Source of the DNA: Pseudomonas allokribbensis
GTDB taxonomy: Bacteria > Pseudomonadota > Gammaproteobacteria > Pseudomonadales > Pseudomonadaceae
Length of the DNA stretch: 64,000 nt
Assembly: GCF_014863605.1 (NCBI RefSeq)
Contig: NZ_CP062252.1
Span: 2,117,001-2,181,000 of the forward strand
Reading direction: 5' to 3'
The notes beneath the pieces are model-generated. The model was not told where the DNA came from and did not search any database. It saw only the letters and a list, made by a program, of their open reading frames with translations. Within the stretch, counting starts at the first letter, position 1, and every line of letters starts with the position of its first letter. Position numbers and translations under genes: made by a program. Below, one piece after another: positions 53,075 through 62,224 of the stretch.

Positions 53075-53521
53075 ATGAGTACTGCATTTTCCCTCGCGCC
53101 ACTGTTCCGTTCCTCGGTAGGCTTCGACCGTTTCAACGACCTGTTCGAAACCGCCCTGCGCAACGAGCCAGGCAGCAGCTATCCGCCTTACAACGTCGAA
53201 AAACACGGTGACGATCAATACCGCATCGTCGTGGCGGCGGCCGGTTTCCAGGAAGAAGACCTGGAACTGCAAGTCGAGAAAGGCGTGCTGACCATCAGTG
53301 GCGGCAAGCGTGACGCGAACGAAGGCGTCACTTTCCTGCACCAGGGCATTGCCCAGCGTGCATTCAAGCTGTCCTTCCGCCTGGCCGATCACATCGAGAT
53401 CAAGGCCGCCGGCCTGAGCAACGGCCTGCTGAGCATCGATCTGCTGCGTGTGATCCCGGAAGAAGCGAAAGCCAAACGCATCCCGATCAACGGGACGCAA
53501 AAGCCGGCGCTGCAACACTGA
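53075..53521 (+). CDS. ibpA: Hsp20 small heat-shock protein (IbpA type)
   Basis: 148 residues, near the length of IbpA. Alpha-crystallin domain with PPYNVEKHGDDQYRIVVAAAGFQEEDLELQVEKGVLTISG, then FKLSFRLADHIEIKAAGLSNGLLSIDLLRVIPEE. ATP-independent holdase that keeps unfolding proteins refoldable. It has both a sigma-32 promoter and a ROSE-like leader, so it should respond to heat at transcription and translation. Confidence 0.95.
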   Translation: MSTAFSLAPLFRSSVGFDRFNDLFETALRNEPGSSYPPYNVEKHGDDQYRIVVAAAGFQEEDLELQVEKGVLTISGGKRDANEGVTFLHQGIAQRAFKLSFRLADHIEIKAAGLSNGLLSIDLLRVIPEEAKAKRIPINGTQKPALQH

Positions 53522-53706: not shown

Positions 53707-54405
53707 ATGGACGATATTCAACAGCGCTGGCTGTGCGCCCTCTCTGCGCCGATGGTGGCGCTCAATCCTCGCGCCGAATACGACGAGCCAGCGTTTTACG
53801 CCGATCCGCAATTCATCGACTTGCAATGCAGCTGGGGAATCAATGACCGCCCGCAATTATTGAGCATGTTCAAACGCATGACCGACAACGGTCATGCCAG
53901 ACATCTCAATGGTGCCTATCAGGCCTGGCAGCGTTGTCTGCCCGGCGAATGGCACGCATTGATGGATACCCTCGAGCCGCGTGAGCGCGTTCTGCACGAT
54001 TTTGCCAGTCGCACCTTTGGTGACTGCGGGCCTGGCGGCATTCTGGCCTGGGACTATGGTCGCATGGGGTTTCTGCTGCGCTGCGCGGTGCGCAACCAGT
54101 GGATTGATCCGACTGAAAGCGCCTGGTTGCACGGGCGGTTGGCGGTCAGGGCCCAGTATCACTACAGCAGCTGGAAATCGTATTTCAACGGATTCCTTTT
54201 CGGTCGCGGGTTCTGGGGATGTGAAAGCAAAGGTGATGACACCTTTGCTTTCGAGCTGGATCGGCAGGGCGAGCAATCGAACAGCGTGCAAGTGGCCCGT
54301 GGGCTTGCGCAGAACATGCCGGTTTTTCTGAACAACCTGCCTTGGCATCTGGAGCTCGACTTGCCCCAGCGTCCGGAATCTCTTGAGGAGTTCGACTGGT
54401 CATGA
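53707..54405 (+). CDS. DUF1266 protein (YbeR/YbeU-like)
   Basis: 232 residues from the ATG at 53707. The C-terminal half carries the DUF1266 pattern: AWDYGRMGFLLRCAVRNQWIDPTESAWLHGRLAVRAQYHYSSWKSYFNGFLFGRGFW. No signal or membrane segment. In E. coli the DUF1266 genes ybeR and ybeU lie with djlB, djlC and hscC; here the same partners follow, which supports a shared chaperone pathway. Its stop overlaps the start of the J-protein gene (ATGA), so the two are translated together. The molecular role is unknown. Confidence 0.85.
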   Translation: MDDIQQRWLCALSAPMVALNPRAEYDEPAFYADPQFIDLQCSWGINDRPQLLSMFKRMTDNGHARHLNGAYQAWQRCLPGEWHALMDTLEPRERVLHDFASRTFGDCGPGGILAWDYGRMGFLLRCAVRNQWIDPTESAWLHGRLAVRAQYHYSSWKSYFNGFLFGRGFWGCESKGDDTFAFELDRQGEQSNSVQVARGLAQNMPVFLNNLPWHLELDLPQRPESLEEFDWS

Positions 54406-57080
54406 GTTGCTGGATACGTTTGGGTATCGAACCCACCGACGATGAATCGTTGATTCGAGATGCGTACCGCGCACGGCTGCCGGAACATCATCCGGAATCC
54501 GACCCTGAAGGATTCCAGGCACTGCGTCAGGCATACGAAAGTGCGATTCGCTTTGCTCGCGAAGAAGCACTTGAAGTGTCTGAAACCGTGGTTTCGGAAG
54601 TGCCTCAGGCCCTTGCCGACTTTGACAATCTGTTGAACGACCCGGCGCAGCGTTTTGATCCGCAGGCCTGGCAGAGCTTTGTCAAAACCCTGGATCAACT
54701 GCCGCTCGGCGTGCTCGACGACCTGCGCTGGGCGCTGTTTGGCCAGATGTTCAACGCCGATCTGTTGTCGCATCGTTGCGCCAGCGTACTCGTTGACCAC
54801 ATGGGCTGGCAGCATCAGTTGATGTCGCTGGGCTTCGAGCAGGCTCGGCAGGCGGAAGACTTTCTCGATCAGATCAATAAGCCCGACCCGTTCGATATGG
54901 CGTTGATGGGGGATTGGTCCGCCGCTGCGCAGACCGAAAGCCTTTGGTATTTGCACACCCTGGATATGATCTTCAATCAGCGCTCGCTGCAGGAGTTCGA
55001 CCGCTTTGTCAGTCGGCACACCTGCCTGCCATTGCCGGATCACACGGCGTCGATCAAGCGTCTGGTCGTGCAGTTCACTCAGGCTGGCATTGGGGGCGAG
55101 GGGCTGCGGCAGTTCTGCGTCGAGCTACAGCGTGAAACGCCGAATGACGTGGATTCGCTGTACCTGCTGGCCTGTCAGAACAGCCTGCTGGGGCTGGAGG
55201 ACGAGGCATTTGCGTGCTGGGTGCAACTCTGGCAGGAACACCGGCACCCGAAGGCCGAGAGCGAGTTGTTGGGCTTGTGCGCCAGGCGTCAGCCGGATTT
55301 TCTTCCTTTGTTGATTCAGGCCTTCGACCGTCTCGGTGATTTTCGCGATTGGGCCTTTGATCTGGGGGATGCCACTCAAGCCTACGGCAGTCCATCGCTC
55401 CGGCCCGAAACCCTGGCTCGCTGGATGGGCATTGGCCCGGACCAGGCTCAGGGCCTGGCCAAGGCGTTTTTGAACTGGCGGATGGCCGACGACGAATTGC
55501 CTTTGCTCGCGTTGCTGTTGGGCGCGCACGACGATGTTCGACTGCAGCAGCTTTATCGACACGCCTGGGCTCTGCATCGAGGCGATGTGCAACTGTTACA
55601 ACAGTTGGTCGATCAGCCTCCGGCCATCGATGCACTTGAAGAACTGGTTCTGAGCGGGTTCAGGTCTCAAGCCCGACAGCATTTGCGTTGGTTGAGTCAT
55701 GGGCCGATCCCGCTGACGATGGGCGCGTTTATCGATGAGGGTTCACAGCAAACGCACCTGCCCGAAGCGCTGGAGAAAGGCAGCGGCCACAAAGTCTGCC
55801 TTGCATGGCTGCGCAGGTTGCGAGCATACAGCCCGGTAGCGCTGGAGCGAATCGAGCAGGCGTTCTCCTTGGGCGACACGTACACGGCCGGCGAGCTGGC
55901 GGTGCTGAGTGTGCTGACCCAATTGAGTGATCGAGGCGTGGCATTGCCACCTGTCGGCTCGGGAGAAGCGGTGTGGCAATGGCACGCCAGCACCCTATAT
56001 CTGTTGGCATTGCTCAGCGAGCCGGAACGCTGGCTGAGCTTGACGGGTGATCTGACGCTGGAACACCTGCCGTTCGATTCGGCCCAGCCAGCCAGTCGGT
56101 TGCAACCGCTGTTGCGGCGTCTTTATCGCGAGCAGGGAGATCTCAACGGTTTGCTTGGCTGGTTGCAGGTCGAAGACCCGGTGCATGCCGTTCTTGCCCG
56201 GCAATTGATGGGCGTCCAGCAAGCACTCGACAGCGTGCGATTACTGAGCAATGACCGCTTGTATGATTGTGTGCACAGCGACCTGCGTGCGTTCAGTGAT
56301 GACGTGCTCGGACGCATGCTGCTGACCGGTGTGCTGTATCACGATCCATTGATGGATGCGCAGCAGCGCCGCTATTTGCTCGAAAGGACAACCGAGATCA
56401 TCAACTCACAGGACTGGTTCGACGGTTTCCGTCACAGTCTGATCAAGGGCGAGCCGACGCACCCGCCATCACAGGCGTTGACGGAGTATGAAGGTATCCA
56501 CAGCGAGACCTTTTACCTGGCCCTCGATGCGCTCAAAGGGTTGGTGCGCTACGGCAGCGCCGGGGTGCCGCGACAGAAAATTTTGCTGCGCATGCAGCGC
56601 GCCAAGGACAACCCGGACCATGGGGTCGGTCTGCGTCTGGCGTTCAGTGCATTGTTGTCGTGGTCGGAACGCTTGCTGCTGGCCCGGGCCGACAGTCGTC
56701 CGGCATCGCCTGTGGCCTTCTGGCGCCTGAATACTCGCCTGGCGCGTGGGCCGTTCTTCTGGCAGGTGCTCGGCTCGTTGTTGGTGACGCCGCTGGCGGC
56801 TTTGCTCAGCGGCACACCGTTGTCCGCAATTGCCGTATTGCTGCTGGGCGGTGTGTTCTTGCTTGGGGCCATACTGCGACGTTTGCATGACATGGGGCGG
56901 GGCATCCCGACGTTGTTGATCCTGCTCTGCCTGTCGCCGGTGTTGCCGTTTCTGCCGTTGATGCTGTTTGCGTTTCCCGGTGACAAGCTGCCCAACCGTT
57001 ATGGTGTGCCGCCGGACAGCGCCGGTGAAGACATGCTGCCCGGCGGCTTGCAGGCTACGCTGCGTCGGCTCAACGGTTAG
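54402..57080 (+). CDS. J-domain protein of DjlB/DjlC type with a DUF805-like membrane end
   Basis: 892 residues. The first 50 look like a divergent J domain (SCWIRLGIEPTDDESLIRDAYRARL..HHPESDPEGFQALRQAYESAI); the usual HPD motif is HPE at 30-32. A very long helical region (about 60-750) has Trp/Leu-rich repeats without a clear family match. The end (about 775-890) has two to three membrane helices with DUF805-like RRLHDMGRGIPTLLIL and FPGDKLPNRYGVPP. It therefore appears to place its J domain at the inner membrane. It is coupled to the DUF1266 gene and converges on hscC with a four-base overlap of stops. DjlB and DjlC are the known cochaperones of HscC in E. coli. Confidence 0.8.
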   Translation: MSCWIRLGIEPTDDESLIRDAYRARLPEHHPESDPEGFQALRQAYESAIRFAREEALEVSETVVSEVPQALADFDNLLNDPAQRFDPQAWQSFVKTLDQLPLGVLDDLRWALFGQMFNADLLSHRCASVLVDHMGWQHQLMSLGFEQARQAEDFLDQINKPDPFDMALMGDWSAAAQTESLWYLHTLDMIFNQRSLQEFDRFVSRHTCLPLPDHTASIKRLVVQFTQAGIGGEGLRQFCVELQRETPNDVDSLYLLACQNSLLGLEDEAFACWVQLWQEHRHPKAESELLGLCARRQPDFLPLLIQAFDRLGDFRDWAFDLGDATQAYGSPSLRPETLARWMGIGPDQAQGLAKAFLNWRMADDELPLLALLLGAHDDVRLQQLYRHAWALHRGDVQLLQQLVDQPPAIDALEELVLSGFRSQARQHLRWLSHGPIPLTMGAFIDEGSQQTHLPEALEKGSGHKVCLAWLRRLRAYSPVALERIEQAFSLGDTYTAGELAVLSVLTQLSDRGVALPPVGSGEAVWQWHASTLYLLALLSEPERWLSLTGDLTLEHLPFDSAQPASRLQPLLRRLYREQGDLNGLLGWLQVEDPVHAVLARQLMGVQQALDSVRLLSNDRLYDCVHSDLRAFSDDVLGRMLLTGVLYHDPLMDAQQRRYLLERTTEIINSQDWFDGFRHSLIKGEPTHPPSQALTEYEGIHSETFYLALDALKGLVRYGSAGVPRQKILLRMQRAKDNPDHGVGLRLAFSALLSWSERLLLARADSRPASPVAFWRLNTRLARGPFFWQVLGSLLVTPLAALLSGTPLSAIAVLLLGGVFLLGAILRRLHDMGRGIPTLLILLCLSPVLPFLPLMLFAFPGDKLPNRYGVPPDSAGEDMLPGGLQATLRRLNG

Positions 57081-58768
57081 AGATGCAGTTCATCGAGCGC
57101 CTTCTCGAGCTGTGATCGATGGCTGGCAATCTCTCTGGGTTGCTGGCCGCCGAGCACGGCGTTGAAGGTGTCCATCCAGTCGGCAATGCGTTCGCGTTCA
57201 TTGCCGAGGCTCTGCATCCAGGCGCGTTCAAGGCGTGCCAGCAATGTGCGGTTGGGCAGCGAATCGCGAGGGTGGACTTTCAGGGTAGAAAGTCGTTCAC
57301 GGCTGTCTTGCCGAGCCTGCTCGTCGAGCCCGGTCGGACTGCGGTCGATACTGTGGCTGTGACGTTCGCCACTGTCGAGCAGGGTGACGTCCACTTCCAG
57401 CAGGCCATTGATGTCATAGCTGAAGCGTACATCCAGGCTCTGAATGTGTTCGCTGGGCTTGAACTGCACATCAAAGGAATCGATGAAGATGTTGTCGCGC
57501 ACCCACGGGCGCTCACCCTGATAAACCGCAATGCGGATCTCGGTCTGTTGTGCAAACGTTGTGGAGTAGCGCTGTACCCGTGAGGTCGGAATAACGGTGT
57601 TGCGCTCGATAATCGGCGAAAAAGCACCACTGATACCTTCACCACGGTTGGTCGAAATCCCCAGGGTGTAAGGGCAGACATCGGTCAGAATCAACTCTTC
57701 AACTGCACCGTCCCGTGCCTTGCACGCCGCTTGCGTCGCCGCACCCAGTGCGACGATCGTGTCCGGATCGAGGTGTCGGTAAGGCAGGCGTCCGAAGAGC
57801 GTGGCCACCATTTGCTGCACCGCCGGCATCCGTGTGGCGCCGCCCACCAGCACCAGGCTGTCGAGGTCTCGGGGTTTGAGGCGGGCATCGCGCAGGGCTT
57901 GCTCGATCGGTGCGCGCAAGCGGGCCAGAAGAGGTTCCCAGATTTTTATCGCGCGGGTTTCGTCCAGCGACCATTCGAACGTCCTGTCGGTATATCGCCA
58001 GTTCAGGTGCCGGGTGCCTTCACCGAGTTTGCATTTGAGCTGTTCCAGCGCATCGCTCAAGCTGGCCATGCCCTGCGCGTCGATCATGGCGGGCGTCAGT
58101 TGCCATTCGCTGAGGCACGCCTGCAGCAAGGCCTCGGTAAAGTCTTCGCCACCCAGAAAGTTGTCACCAGTGGACGCATGCACCTCGATCAGCGGCAACG
58201 CATATTCCAGCACCGTGACATCGAAAGTCCCGCCGCCCAGATCGAAGATCAGCGTGCGTTCGAATTTCTGTTCATGCAGCCCGTAGGCCATGGCGGCGGC
58301 GGTCGGCTCGTTGATCAGTCGGGAGACTTTCAGCCCTGCCAGTTCGGCAGCGAACAGCGTGCGTTTGCGTTGCTCGTCACTGAAATACGCCGGCACGGAA
58401 ATCACCGCTTCAGACACCGGATGACCGAGAAAGGCCTCGGCATCCTGTTTGAGCGAACCGATCACCAGCGCCGAGAGTTCTTCCGGGCTGAATGAGCGCC
58501 CACCCAGTTCCAGACGTTTTTCACTGCCCATGAATCGCTTGAACGCCGCCGCTGTGCGTTCCGGGTGGGTGGTCAGGCGTGCGCGGGCGGCTTTGCCGAC
58601 CAGAATGCTGTCGTCTTCATCGAGGCTGACGACGGAAGGCGTGAGTACCTCGCCGAGGGCGTTGGGGATCAACCGGGCCTGACCGTCCTGCCAGACGGCG
58701 ATCAAACTGTTGGTGGTACCAAGGTCAATGCCCAGCAGGGCCGGGCGGGGGAGGGTTGCATCCTGCAT
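57077..58768 (-). CDS. hscC: HscC-type Hsp70 chaperone
   Basis: 563 residues from the ATG at 58768 (E. coli HscC is about 556). Hsp70 ATPase: LLGIDLGTTNSLIAVWQDG, the central LINEPTAAAMAYGL and FDLGGGTFDVTVLEYALPL, then LVLVGGATRMPAVQQMV. The substrate-binding part is present but shorter than in DnaK, lacking most of the helical lid. HscC is a specialised Hsp70 with fast nucleotide exchange, paired with J proteins DjlB and DjlC. Here the J-protein gene lies on the opposite strand, stop to stop, rather than in the same operon. Confidence 0.92.
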   Translation of the reverse strand: MQDATLPRPALLGIDLGTTNSLIAVWQDGQARLIPNALGEVLTPSVVSLDEDDSILVGKAARARLTTHPERTAAAFKRFMGSEKRLELGGRSFSPEELSALVIGSLKQDAEAFLGHPVSEAVISVPAYFSDEQRKRTLFAAELAGLKVSRLINEPTAAAMAYGLHEQKFERTLIFDLGGGTFDVTVLEYALPLIEVHASTGDNFLGGEDFTEALLQACLSEWQLTPAMIDAQGMASLSDALEQLKCKLGEGTRHLNWRYTDRTFEWSLDETRAIKIWEPLLARLRAPIEQALRDARLKPRDLDSLVLVGGATRMPAVQQMVATLFGRLPYRHLDPDTIVALGAATQAACKARDGAVEELILTDVCPYTLGISTNRGEGISGAFSPIIERNTVIPTSRVQRYSTTFAQQTEIRIAVYQGERPWVRDNIFIDSFDVQFKPSEHIQSLDVRFSYDINGLLEVDVTLLDSGERHSHSIDRSPTGLDEQARQDSRERLSTLKVHPRDSLPNRTLLARLERAWMQSLGNERERIADWMDTFNAVLGGQQPREIASHRSQLEKALDELHL

Positions 58769-58877: not shown

Positions 58878-61800
58878 TCAAGCCAGCAACCCTTTCAACA
58901 CCTCCAGCGCCACCGGCCGACTGTGCAGATACCCCTGATACAAATGGCAACCCAGCCCTTGCAGGAACTCCAGTTGCTCCGGGGTTTCCACGCCTTCGGC
59001 GATCACTTCCAGCTCCAGGCTGCGGGCCATGGCGACGATGGCGCGAATGATCTCGGCGTCGTTGGGGTCGCTGGTGGCGTCGCGGATGAAGGATTGATCG
59101 ATCTTCAGCGTGTCCACCGGTAGGCGTTTCAGATAGGTCAGTGATGAATAGCCAGTGCCGAAGTCGTCCATGGCGAAGCTCACGCCGAGTTTTTTCAGGC
59201 GGCGCATCTTGCTGATGGTGTCTTCCAGATTCTGGATGACGATGCCTTCGGTGATTTCCAGTTTCAGCAGCGAGCAGGGCAGGCCGTGGCTGGTCATGCT
59301 GTGTTCGATGCGTTCGACGAAGTCGTTCTGGCGGAACTGCCGGGGGCTGATGTTCACGCACAGGCTGAACGCCAGAGGATCGATCAGGCCTTCGGCGATC
59401 AGTTGTTTGAAGGCATCGCAGGCCTCATCGAGGATCCAGGTGCCGACCTCGAGGATCAGCCCGCTGTCCTCCAGGACCTTGATGAACTCGGTGGGTGATT
59501 GTGCGCCGAGTTCCGGGTGATTCCAGCGCACCAGCGCTTCGGCGCCGATGATGCGATTGTCCCGGGCGTCCACTTGCGGCTGGAAATGCACGTTGAATTC
59601 GCCACGGGACAGCGCCAGGCGCAGATCGGTCTCCATGCGCAGCCGTTCGCTGGCCGCTTTCTGCATGGTGTTGTGGTACATCTGCGTGGTGTTGCGCCCG
59701 GAATCCTTGGCCCGGTACAACGCAATGTCCGCGCGCTTGAGCAGGTCGGTCGGGGTCGAGCCGTGATCGGGAATCAGTGCGACGCCAATGCTCGGCGTCA
59801 CTTGCAGGCGCTGGCCGTCGAGGAACATCGGCTCCGAGAGCAATTCGCGAATGGTGTCGGCCAGTTCACGCACCTGGCCGCTGACTTCGTTGCGGGTGCC
59901 TTCCAGGCCGCTGAGCAACACCACGAATTCATCGCCACCGAGCCGAGCCACGGTGTCTTCCATGCGCACACTGGCTTCGAGGCGCGCGGTGATGATTTTC
60001 AGCACCGTATCGCCGACCGGATGGCCGAGCGAGTCGTTGATGTGCTTGAAGTGATCCAGATCGAGAAACAACAGCGCGCCGCGCAGGTTGTGGCGTTTGA
60101 GCAGGGCGATCTGCTGGCTCAGGCGATCCATCAGCAGCGCACGGTTGGGCAGGTTGGTCAGCGGGTCGTGGTAGGCCAGATGACGGATCTGCGCTTCGGC
60201 GTTCTTCAGCAGGCTGACGTCCCGGGCGGTCATCAGCAGGCAGGCGGTTTCGTTGAGCGTGATCGGCTCGACCGAAACCTCCACCGTCAGCAATTCCCCG
60301 CGCTTGTTGCGCCCGAGCATTTCCTGATGGTGCACGCGGCCCTTGATCTGTAGCTCTGCGAGCAGCCCCGAGCGCTGTTTTTCCTCGGCCCAGATGCCGA
60401 CCTGATACACGGTCTTACCGACCACTTCATCGGCACGGTAGCCGGTCAGGCGACAGAAGCCGTCGTTGACCTCCAGATAACGCCCGGTGTCTCGTTCGGT
60501 GATGGTGATGGCGTCGGGGCTGGAGTGAAACGCCTTGGCGAACTTCTCTTCACTGGCCTTGAGCGCCGCTTCCGAGCGCTGTTGCTGGGTGATGTCGCGC
60601 AGCGTGGTGACGATACACGGCTGGTTGCCGACGCTGATCTGGCGGCTGGAAATCACACAGGTCAGCGACTGACCGTCCTTGTGCTGGACGATGATCGCGA
60701 CATTGCTCAGGCCCTGTTCGCGGATCACCCGTTCGATGCGCTGCAGGCTTTTCGCCGAGGCATCCCACAGACCGATTTCTTCGGCGGTATGGCCGATGAC
60801 GTCAGTGGCGCTCCAGCCGAAAGTCTGGGTGAAACTGGAGTTGATCTCGATGAATTCCCCGGTTTCCTGGCGGGTCACGCAAATCGGGTCGGGGCTGACC
60901 TGGAACAGCGTGGCGAACTTCTCTTCTGAAGCCACCAGCCGTTGTTCGCGTTCGACCTGATCGGTGATGTCCAGCAGGGTGCCCGCCATGCGCAGCGGCG
61001 CGCCGTTTTCATCGCGATAGAGGCGGGCGCGGCTTTCCAGATAACGTGAGCTGCCGTCCGGCAGTTGCACGCGATACGTCAGCTGATAATTGCCCGCCGG
61101 ACCTTCGCGCAGGCTGCGGTAGGCGTCGCGCATGCTGTCGCGTTCCTCGCCGGGCACGCCTTCGAAGAACTCGTCAAAAGATTCGTGAAACGGAATCGGC
61201 TCCAGCCCGTGCAATTGCGCGGCCCGGGCCGAGCCATAGAGCATGCCGCTGGGAATGTGCCAGTCCCAGGTGCCGAGCTGGGCAGAGTCCAGCGCCAGAT
61301 CGAGGCGTTCCTGGCTGTCCTTGAGCGCGTGCTCGGCGGCTTTGCGTTCGGTGGTGTCGAGAAACGTGCTCAACAGATAAGGCTGGCCTTCGAGTTCGAC
61401 CTTTTGCGCACTGAGAATGCCGTCATGGACTTGGCCATTGCTGGCGCGGAACTGCACTTCCATGCTGATCAGTTCGCCCTTGGCCTTGGTCTTCTTGACC
61501 AGCTCCGCCCGTTGCTCGGGATGCACCCACAGGCCCAATTCCAGGGTGGTGCGCCCGATCGCACTTTGCACCGGCCAGCCGAACAGACTTTCGAAATACT
61601 GGTTGGCCTCGCTGATCAGGCCGTCTTCCTGGCGGGTCAGCAGCACCATGTTCGGGCACAGATGAAACAGTGTGGCGAAACGTTTCTCCGAACTGCTGAG
61701 GGCCTGTTCCCGTTGCCGCTGGTGGGTGATTTCACGGATCACCCCGATCATTCGGGGCCGGCCATGCTTGTCCGGCAGCAGGCTGCCATTGATCTCCAGC

Positions 61801-62156
61801 CAGTGCAGGCTGCCATCGGGCCAGCGGATGCGGTGGTGCATCGCCTGTTCCAGCGGCGCGCCGGCTATTACCGCGTGGAAGGCGCGAACGGTTTTCGCCC
61901 GGTCTTCCGGCGGCAGCAGGTCGAGGTATTCCAGGTCTTCGGGCAACGGCTGCCGTGGATCGAAGCCGAACAAGGCCTGAGTGCCCCGCGACCAACTGAT
62001 CTGCCCGCGTTCGATGTCCCAATACCAGGCGCCGAGCCGGGCGCCATTGAGCGCCGCGAGCAATTGCGGCGCGCTCTCCCAGCTCTGCTCGGAACGCCGT
62101 GGATCAATGGCCTGAATACGCGGCATCGGCGGAATACGGTCAACAGATTTCGGCAT
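58878..62156 (-). CDS. Five-PAS GGDEF/EAL cyclic-di-GMP protein
   Basis: About 1092 residues from the ATG at 62156; an ATG 30 bases upstream is also possible. Five PAS domains in a row occupy about 25-640, each followed by a short linker helix (REITHQRQREQAL, DTTERKAAEHAL, DITDQVEREQRL, DITQQQRSEAAL, DVSLLKNAEAQI). Next is a GGDEF domain (about 650-820) with intact GGDEF, then an EAL domain (about 830-1085) with EALVRW, LEITEGIV, MDDFGTGYSSL, KIDQSFI and AEGVETPEQ. All known catalytic residues look present, so it may make or break cyclic-di-GMP. No membrane segment is seen; sensing is probably cytoplasmic. Confidence 0.92.
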   Translation of the reverse strand: MPKSVDRIPPMPRIQAIDPRRSEQSWESAPQLLAALNGARLGAWYWDIERGQISWSRGTQALFGFDPRQPLPEDLEYLDLLPPEDRAKTVRAFHAVIAGAPLEQAMHHRIRWPDGSLHWLEINGSLLPDKHGRPRMIGVIREITHQRQREQALSSSEKRFATLFHLCPNMVLLTRQEDGLISEANQYFESLFGWPVQSAIGRTTLELGLWVHPEQRAELVKKTKAKGELISMEVQFRASNGQVHDGILSAQKVELEGQPYLLSTFLDTTERKAAEHALKDSQERLDLALDSAQLGTWDWHIPSGMLYGSARAAQLHGLEPIPFHESFDEFFEGVPGEERDSMRDAYRSLREGPAGNYQLTYRVQLPDGSSRYLESRARLYRDENGAPLRMAGTLLDITDQVEREQRLVASEEKFATLFQVSPDPICVTRQETGEFIEINSSFTQTFGWSATDVIGHTAEEIGLWDASAKSLQRIERVIREQGLSNVAIIVQHKDGQSLTCVISSRQISVGNQPCIVTTLRDITQQQRSEAALKASEEKFAKAFHSSPDAITITERDTGRYLEVNDGFCRLTGYRADEVVGKTVYQVGIWAEEKQRSGLLAELQIKGRVHHQEMLGRNKRGELLTVEVSVEPITLNETACLLMTARDVSLLKNAEAQIRHLAYHDPLTNLPNRALLMDRLSQQIALLKRHNLRGALLFLDLDHFKHINDSLGHPVGDTVLKIITARLEASVRMEDTVARLGGDEFVVLLSGLEGTRNEVSGQVRELADTIRELLSEPMFLDGQRLQVTPSIGVALIPDHGSTPTDLLKRADIALYRAKDSGRNTTQMYHNTMQKAASERLRMETDLRLALSRGEFNVHFQPQVDARDNRIIGAEALVRWNHPELGAQSPTEFIKVLEDSGLILEVGTWILDEACDAFKQLIAEGLIDPLAFSLCVNISPRQFRQNDFVERIEHSMTSHGLPCSLLKLEITEGIVIQNLEDTISKMRRLKKLGVSFAMDDFGTGYSSLTYLKRLPVDTLKIDQSFIRDATSDPNDAEIIRAIVAMARSLELEVIAEGVETPEQLEFLQGLGCHLYQGYLHSRPVALEVLKGLLA

Positions 62157-62224
62157 TGTTAAGGGGCCTTGAGCTGATTTGGGCATTAGGCACAGGGACG
62201 GCAGCTCTATAGGAGTAGCACAAG

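Follow-up and report, generated by a model that had tools for sequence, protein, structure and literature searches.

A probable Pseudomonas counterpart of the E. coli HscC-DjlB/DjlC chaperone system and the non-HPD J motifs of HscC partners

A stretch of 64,000 nucleotides of Pseudomonas allokribbensis DNA (contig NZ_CP062252.1, positions 2,117,001 to 2,181,000; hereafter the window), taken from a host genome of 6.57 Mb on one contig, encodes side by side a DUF1266 protein, a large J protein and HscC, a member of the Hsp70 family. The HPD motif is regarded as an almost invariable trigger of Hsp70s, and the J protein of the window reads HPE at this place, so the locus raises the question of whether HPE is a disabling oddity of this protein, as the first-pass annotation proposed, or the proper motif of an HscC partner. 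The evidence makes it probable that the window encodes the HscC-DjlB/DjlC system of E. coli in its Pseudomonas version, i.e., a specialised Hsp70 with a dedicated, membrane-tethered J protein, in which HPE is native to the pair. This is a known, little-studied system, of which the window is a long-form member. The "undescribed function" initially assigned to the trio was thus too strong a wording, because reports on the E. coli system cover the specificity of the partners, the insertion of DjlC into the membrane and a sensitivity to cadmium (PMC8215388).

The HPE motif is indeed present in the window J protein (residues 30-32; 54489..54497, + strand), but it does not set this protein apart. 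The J domains of E. coli DjlB and DjlC are both HPE. Among the 120 homologues of the window J protein listed out of 177, the named ones being Pseudomonas proteins, 117 retain an intact N-terminal J domain and all 117 carry HPE. The 120 DjlB/DjlC homologues listed out of 140 include 115 with a J domain, which is HPE in 114 and HLE in one. The reading of HPE as a unique or disabling change is rejected on account of this common occurrence. A 2026 review describes HPE as the sole replacement of HPD that seems to be tolerated and locates it in the HscC-interacting proteins DjlB and DjlC of E. coli (PMC13254874). Over-expressed E. coli HscC has also been reported to bind sigma70 (PMC3861889).

The hscC gene (58768..57077, - strand, with the ATG at 58768) encodes a protein of 563 amino acids, within the range of 550-580 given for HscC in PMC8215388. 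It shares 58% identity with E. coli HscC and 35% with E. coli DnaK; therefore, the Hsp70 of this locus is HscC and not DnaK. In a FastTree phylogeny of 125 Hsp70s, it groups with E. coli HscC in a clade of 31 rows (Shimodaira-Hasegawa-like support of 100) that also takes in Gilliamella and a pair of loci from another family, all of them with the same trio, and HPE is found at 31/31 loci of this clade.

For a wider comparison we used at least 118 HscC loci, drawn from the window, E. coli, six HscC genome scans and named genomes (the class and phylum scans scored three candidates per genome), together with 68 control Hsp70 loci, which are the lower-ranked loci of the named-genome scan and are not curated as DnaK. 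Five Hsp70s matching at 473-504 bits (L172 and L200-L203) were left out, the lowest counted HscC scoring 642 and the best control 511, as were the split HscC of genome G080 (L065), the partial or weaker places of G518, G572, G689 and G786, and at least two J places located away from HscC, in G062 and G111. The L1,2 segment of the substrate-binding domain, where HscC proteins are expected to have an insertion of 4-8 residues, has 12 residues in the window protein versus the 7 of DnaK 400-406; it measures 11-17 in 114 of the 118 HscC with the length read and 7 in 67/68 controls. The region of DnaK 76-101 is reduced to 2-3 of its 26 residues in 118/118 HscC, a trait that is not exclusive to them, being found in 35/68 controls too. 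Around the GrpE signature (DnaK 290-295), which HscC proteins are expected to lack, the alignment is unsure: the window protein and E. coli HscC show a gap at about 284-289, but 290-295 is filled in 114/118 HscC. The deletion of the DnaK 208-211 loop was dropped as an HscC hallmark, position 211 being absent from all 68 controls as well.

To read the motifs of HscC partners, J domains were searched within 3.5 kb of HscC with a model in which the three motif columns were masked. This search gave 121 short-loop J domains at 114/118 loci. Their motifs, read by eye when other than HPE or RPD, were RPD (61), HPE (36), RPE (4), DPA (4), NPE (3), KPE (2), GPE (2), DQV (2) and, once each, RLD, DPE, DQQ, DQE, DQA, DVD and DVE, and HPD was found in 0/121 short-loop J domains near HscC. 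Searches of the open-licence literature gave no J domain described with RPD, whereas HPE is reported there for DjlB and DjlC (PMC13254874); a passage of PMC4263515 says nothing on a Pseudomonas HscC. At the 68 control loci, the DnaJ pattern caught 32 proteins, 30 of them with HPD, one in a misregistered row that reads HPD, and one with PPE (L103). The loop from the motif to the aromatic residue of helix III has five residues in 113/113 measurable HscC-linked domains and in 19/19 others, as well as in eight further HscC-linked domains read by eye, versus 8-12 residues in the seven DnaJ controls that could be measured. On the tree of 125 Hsp70s, the motifs, sorted into five classes, switch class 16 times or more, HPD never arising in a short-loop partner, and the changes span Pseudomonadota, Bacillota and one Planctomycetota locus of unsure placement. 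Four HscC genes have no J domain within 3.5 kb: three lie on contigs of 7 kb or less (L078, L088 and L090), and the fourth (L207) has an adjacent J match with an in-frame stop.

Two observations from this survey stand apart. The Hsp70s of L103, L200 and L201 score 490-504 bits with the HscC model, have Val at the position of DnaK residue 392, and are each adjacent to a short PPE J protein; they are not HscC and possibly represent a separate non-HPD pair. More generally, among the five left-out Hsp70s residue 392 is Val in four and Leu in L203, and the neighbouring J protein is PPE in L200 and L201, HPD in L203, and absent in L172 and L202. At L179 (4633-9540), the J domain beside HscC lies at residues 1152-1195 of a 1635-residue stop-to-stop frame and not at the start of that frame.

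In Pseudomonas, the HscC proteins fall into two classes. Class 1, that of the window, is found in 27 genomes with a long J protein encoded convergently. Class 2 occupies 35 places with a J protein of about 550 amino acids encoded downstream on the same strand (39/39 J domains), and, within the family of the window, the J domains of class 2 are RPD in 38/39. A further 18 J proteins (L046 and L048-L064), from Pseudomonas genomes that hold HscC, have no HscC gene in the fetched stretch; all of them are RPD, and they are possibly further partners of one HscC. At one of these loci (L053), two genes come after the J gene, one for a DUF3829-like and one for a DUF3313 protein, and neighbours of similar size recur at other such loci.

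Could HPE, RPD and the remaining variants nevertheless be disabled J domains, so that the J protein, as a type IV J protein, tethers or scaffolds HscC at the membrane without triggering hydrolysis? According to PMC8215388, no tested system retained stimulation once the His of HPD was replaced by Gln or its Asp by Asn, and the D-type motifs (12/121) lose most of the motif chemistry. We nonetheless consider this explanation unlikely. E. coli DjlC is HPE and yet is reported to stimulate HscC (PMC8215388), and the constancy of HPE in the listed homologues with a J domain (117/117 and 114/115) and of RPD in class 2 (38/39) is unlike decay. Other residues of the domain are kept too. Of the 141 tabulated J domains (122 beside HscC and 19 others), all have Tyr25 and a basic residue at 22, 140 have Phe or Tyr at 47, and 118 have Arg at 51.

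If HPE is native to the pair, the Hsp70 side of the contact should be considered. In DnaK, the motif His contacts Leu391/392 of the interdomain linker and the Asp contacts Arg167 (PMC13012618, PMC8215388), with Gln378 given as a second contact of the Asp in PMC8215388. Counting positions along the E. coli DnaK sequence, position 392 is Thr in 118/118 HscC (Thr362 in the window; 57683..57685, - strand, codon verified), and Leu in 67 and Val in one of the 68 controls. Position 477 is Thr or Ser in 118/118 HscC (Ser450 in the window; 57419..57421, - strand, codon verified) and Asp in 58/68 controls. The J-side partner of Asp477, Lys48 of DnaJ, is replaced by Gln in 120/141 J domains, including Gln39 of the window protein; thus, this salt bridge is gone on both sides. 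The window HscC keeps the equivalents of Arg167 (Arg150; 58319..58321, - strand), the partner of the third motif residue, and of Gln378. Across the 118 HscC, position 167 is Arg in 82, Lys in 35 and Thr in one, the Lys being confined to RPD loci (35/57).

HscC would therefore keep the pocket for the acidic motif residue while presenting Thr where the motif His makes its linker contact, and we propose that this changed contact leaves the first motif residue free to vary and no longer fits the partners of DnaK. Across HscC systems, the motif would have relaxed from HPD to HPE, RPD, RPE, NPE, KPE, GPE and beyond, and the likely effect is the insulation of HscC from DnaK co-chaperones. HscC most likely uses a relaxed J code of its own for work at the membrane. 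A more general version, which we put forward tentatively and at slightly less than even chances, is that HscC-type Hsp70s as a group follow their own J code: the change of the linker Leu to Thr and the lost Lys48-Asp477 bridge would free the partners from HPD, and J domains from HPE to the DPA/DQV type would drive a cycle orthogonal to that of DnaK, with partners that are mostly membrane-anchored or TPR-bearing (tetratricopeptide repeat), sometimes several per HscC, and mostly below the Pfam cut-off.

Several findings weigh against such a code. The differences at 392 and 477 part HscC from DnaK only once on the tree, and hence they are traits of one split and not repeated co-evolution. Lys167 changed about four times only on the tree, and 22/57 RPD loci retain Arg167, which shows that RPD does not depend on Lys167. 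The D-type J domains (12/121) may have lost stimulation. One locus (L198) also holds, beside its RPD partner, an HPD J protein with a longer, DnaJ-like loop, which is the 122nd J domain. Co-variation inside HscC was suggestive in counts but not significant on independent pairs, which are too few: the D-type motif with Met391 (Met in 10/11 D-type loci) gave three supported independent pairs (p 0.25-1), and Lys167 with RPD gave two (p 1).

The gene of the J protein (54402..57080, + strand) encodes 892 amino acids that we describe as the long form of a DjlB/DjlC-type HscC co-chaperone. By the canonical definition of a J protein, HPD and a score above the Pfam cut-off, it would not be called, since it lacks HPD and its J domain scores 17.4 bits with the Pfam DnaJ model (PF00226), under the 27.8 curated threshold. 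The J domain (residues 2-53; 54405..54560, + strand) is real because residues 2-313 are homologous to DjlB and DjlC (29-31% identity in alignments of about 315 columns, with E-values of 6e-37 and 2e-38) and residues 2-53 form three helices in the AlphaFold2 model, with the loop of five residues between the motif and helix III. Among HscC-type J domains, 13 of the 14 scored fall under the DnaJ cut-off, including those of DjlB and DjlC; thus, inventories made at that cut-off would miss them.

After the J domain, a helical solenoid extends over residues 66-763 (54597..56690, + strand), in agreement with the roughly 700 residues of helical sequence that had been noted at first. It is helical in the AlphaFold2 model of the J protein (predicted local distance difference test, pLDDT, 85.6; predicted template modelling score, pTM, 0.68), and its residues at about 223-297 superpose on TPR proteins across some two repeats. 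A newer Pfam domain, PF27158, is placed by precomputed annotation on the homologues of the J protein, including one that is 96% identical to it (P0001), and on most listed DjlB/DjlC homologues; its assignment to the window protein comes from these homologues. The proposed DUF805-like membrane domain at the C-terminal end was confirmed (residues 776-868; 56727..57005, + strand; 33.1 bits versus a cut-off of 25.7). It has three hydrophobic stretches, with hydropathy peaks at 785-803, 807-825 and 838-856, in place of the single C-terminal tail anchor of DjlB and DjlC, and the protein is thus a long-form homologue and not a tail-anchored DjlC. Among 18 HscC-type J proteins checked, a hydrophobic stretch was found in 12 and TPRs in four of the other six.

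The first gene of the trio (53707..54405, + strand) encodes a DUF1266 protein of 232 amino acids, homologous to E. coli YbeR and YbeU (40-43% identity) and matching PF06889 with E 1.1e-32 (114 bits, above the cut-off of 27). Its stop codon overlaps the start of the J gene in an ATGA, and the J gene and hscC are convergent with an overlap of four bases, the three open reading frames being arranged as first annotated. The AlphaFold2 model of the DUF1266 protein is all-helical (pLDDT 91.5, pTM 0.89) and found no convincing match among solved structures, so that it possibly represents an undescribed fold. With an iterated custom model, DUF1266 was detected at 33/118 HscC loci, namely, all 31 of the window's clade, a Paenibacillus locus and a GPE locus (L196), and it was absent from 57/57 RPD loci and from three other HPE loci.

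These features could be taken to mean that the J protein and the DUF1266 protein make up a machine of their own, whose function has nothing to do with that of E. coli HscC and in which HscC is a hired motor: at 892 amino acids, the J protein has almost double the length of DjlB and DjlC (475 and 483), it ends in DUF805 and not in a single anchor, and the DUF1266 model resembles no solved structure convincingly. We judge this to be rather improbable, because the same trio accompanies HscC in E. coli, Gilliamella and the two other-family loci of the clade, and because a Pseudomonas homologue (L022) that naturally lacks residues of about 456-766 has retained its linkage along with the J domain, DUF805 and the front half of the solenoid. 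The first-pass equation of the locus with E. coli ybeR-djlB/ybeU-djlC-hscC is borne out by homology and synteny.

The linkage of the three genes, on whose loss in other genomes the first-pass annotation would have been abandoned, is maintained, the trio being intact at 27/27 Pseudomonas loci, window included. The 26 relatives of the window locus were compared for four flank genes, two of which we take to be a dihydrouridine synthase and an acyl-thioesterase-like gene; the flank with IbpA and the putative dihydrouridine synthase recurs in 14 of them, and nine show none of the four in the fetched stretch, which indicates that the trio also persists in other surroundings. Of 119 Pseudomonas genomes, 55 match the J profile and 54 match HscC; every one of the 54 with HscC has the J protein too, and HscC is found in 0/64 of the J-less genomes (Fisher 2e-33, a test that ignores phylogeny). 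The only J-only genome, G080 (L065), has an HscC split in two segments beside the J gene; this split, as well as the in-frame stop of the J match at L207, is due to decay or to an assembly error. An additional role of the J protein with DnaK, its linkage to HscC being historical, is very improbable in view of the genome-by-genome co-occurrence, the retention of the trio among changing flank genes and the partner specificity reported in E. coli (PMC8215388), even if the conserved Arg167 and Gln378 of the window HscC imply that the Glu of HPE might dock on DnaK too.

On both sides of the trio there are other genes. Directly upstream lies a gene for an IbpA-like small heat-shock protein (53075-53521), common to 14/26 related loci, and it therefore belongs to the neighbourhood and is not part of the trio. 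On the other side, hscC adjoins a gene encoding a PAS-GGDEF-EAL protein of 1102 amino acids (58878-62186), with matches of 84-98% identity at 16/26 related loci and a match of merely 37% at one further locus.

Returning to the Pseudomonas form of the HscC-DjlB/DjlC system, the trio is a conserved and probably membrane-side chaperone unit, for which we propose the following mode of action. HscC, which is scarce in E. coli, would be paired with its dedicated J protein at the inner membrane. The J protein would be held there by its C-terminal DUF805 helices, with the TPR-like solenoid and the N-terminal J domain reaching into the cytosol, and the solenoid, probably together with the co-encoded DUF1266 protein, would present membrane-proximal clients. 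By homology with the stimulation reported for E. coli DjlC and HscC, the J domain would dock on the linker face of HscC and promote the hydrolysis of ATP, upon which HscC would clamp the client.

With the trio delimited in this way, its clients can now be sought. The wider relevance lies in the HscC branch, whose non-HPD, short-loop partners would supply natural test pairs for the contacts of J-triggered hydrolysis, i.e., His33 with Leu391/392, Asp35 with Arg167, and Lys48 with Asp477. The HscC/J pairs would also give parts for orthogonal chaperone pairs, and there would be grounds for counting bacterial J proteins anew below the Pfam cut-off.

Compared with known systems, the window resembles most closely E. 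coli HscC-DjlC/DjlB-YbeU/YbeR, with which it shares the HscC clade, HPE, a J protein that is homologous over its first 310 or so residues, an upstream DUF1266 gene with the ATGA overlap, and a convergent hscC. The E. coli plan is partly duplicated (ybeR-djlB, then ybeU-djlC, with hscC convergent), whereas the window has a single copy, and its 892-residue J protein carries the extra solenoid and DUF805 instead of a single C-terminal tail anchor. The class 2 HscC/RPD systems of Pseudomonas share with the window HscC, a non-HPD motif, the loop of five residues and hydrophobic stretches in the J protein (checked in L034 for class 2), but they differ in RPD, in a J gene located downstream on the same strand, in having no DUF1266 nearby (0/57 RPD loci) and in the Lys at the position of DnaK Arg167 (13 of the first 15). 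The Bacillota loci whose J proteins bear TPRs (Paenibacillus L087, Lachnospiraceae L094 and C. neonatale L089) likewise combine HscC with a large non-HPD J protein, and Paenibacillus L087 also has DUF1266 (Pfam E 4.5e-41), but their J proteins have recognisable TPR repeats and no membrane segment found by hydropathy. With DnaJ/CbpA/DjlA-DnaK and HscB-HscA, the window has in common the J-domain family and the docking residues Arg167 and Gln378, and DnaJ/DnaK-type systems differ from it in HPD, in the loop of 8-12 residues (seven DnaJ controls), and in Leu392 and Asp477 (67/68 and 58/68 controls). Judging from the motifs collected here, short-loop HscC partners appear not to use HPD, and the window locus would be among the more conservative examples of this rule.

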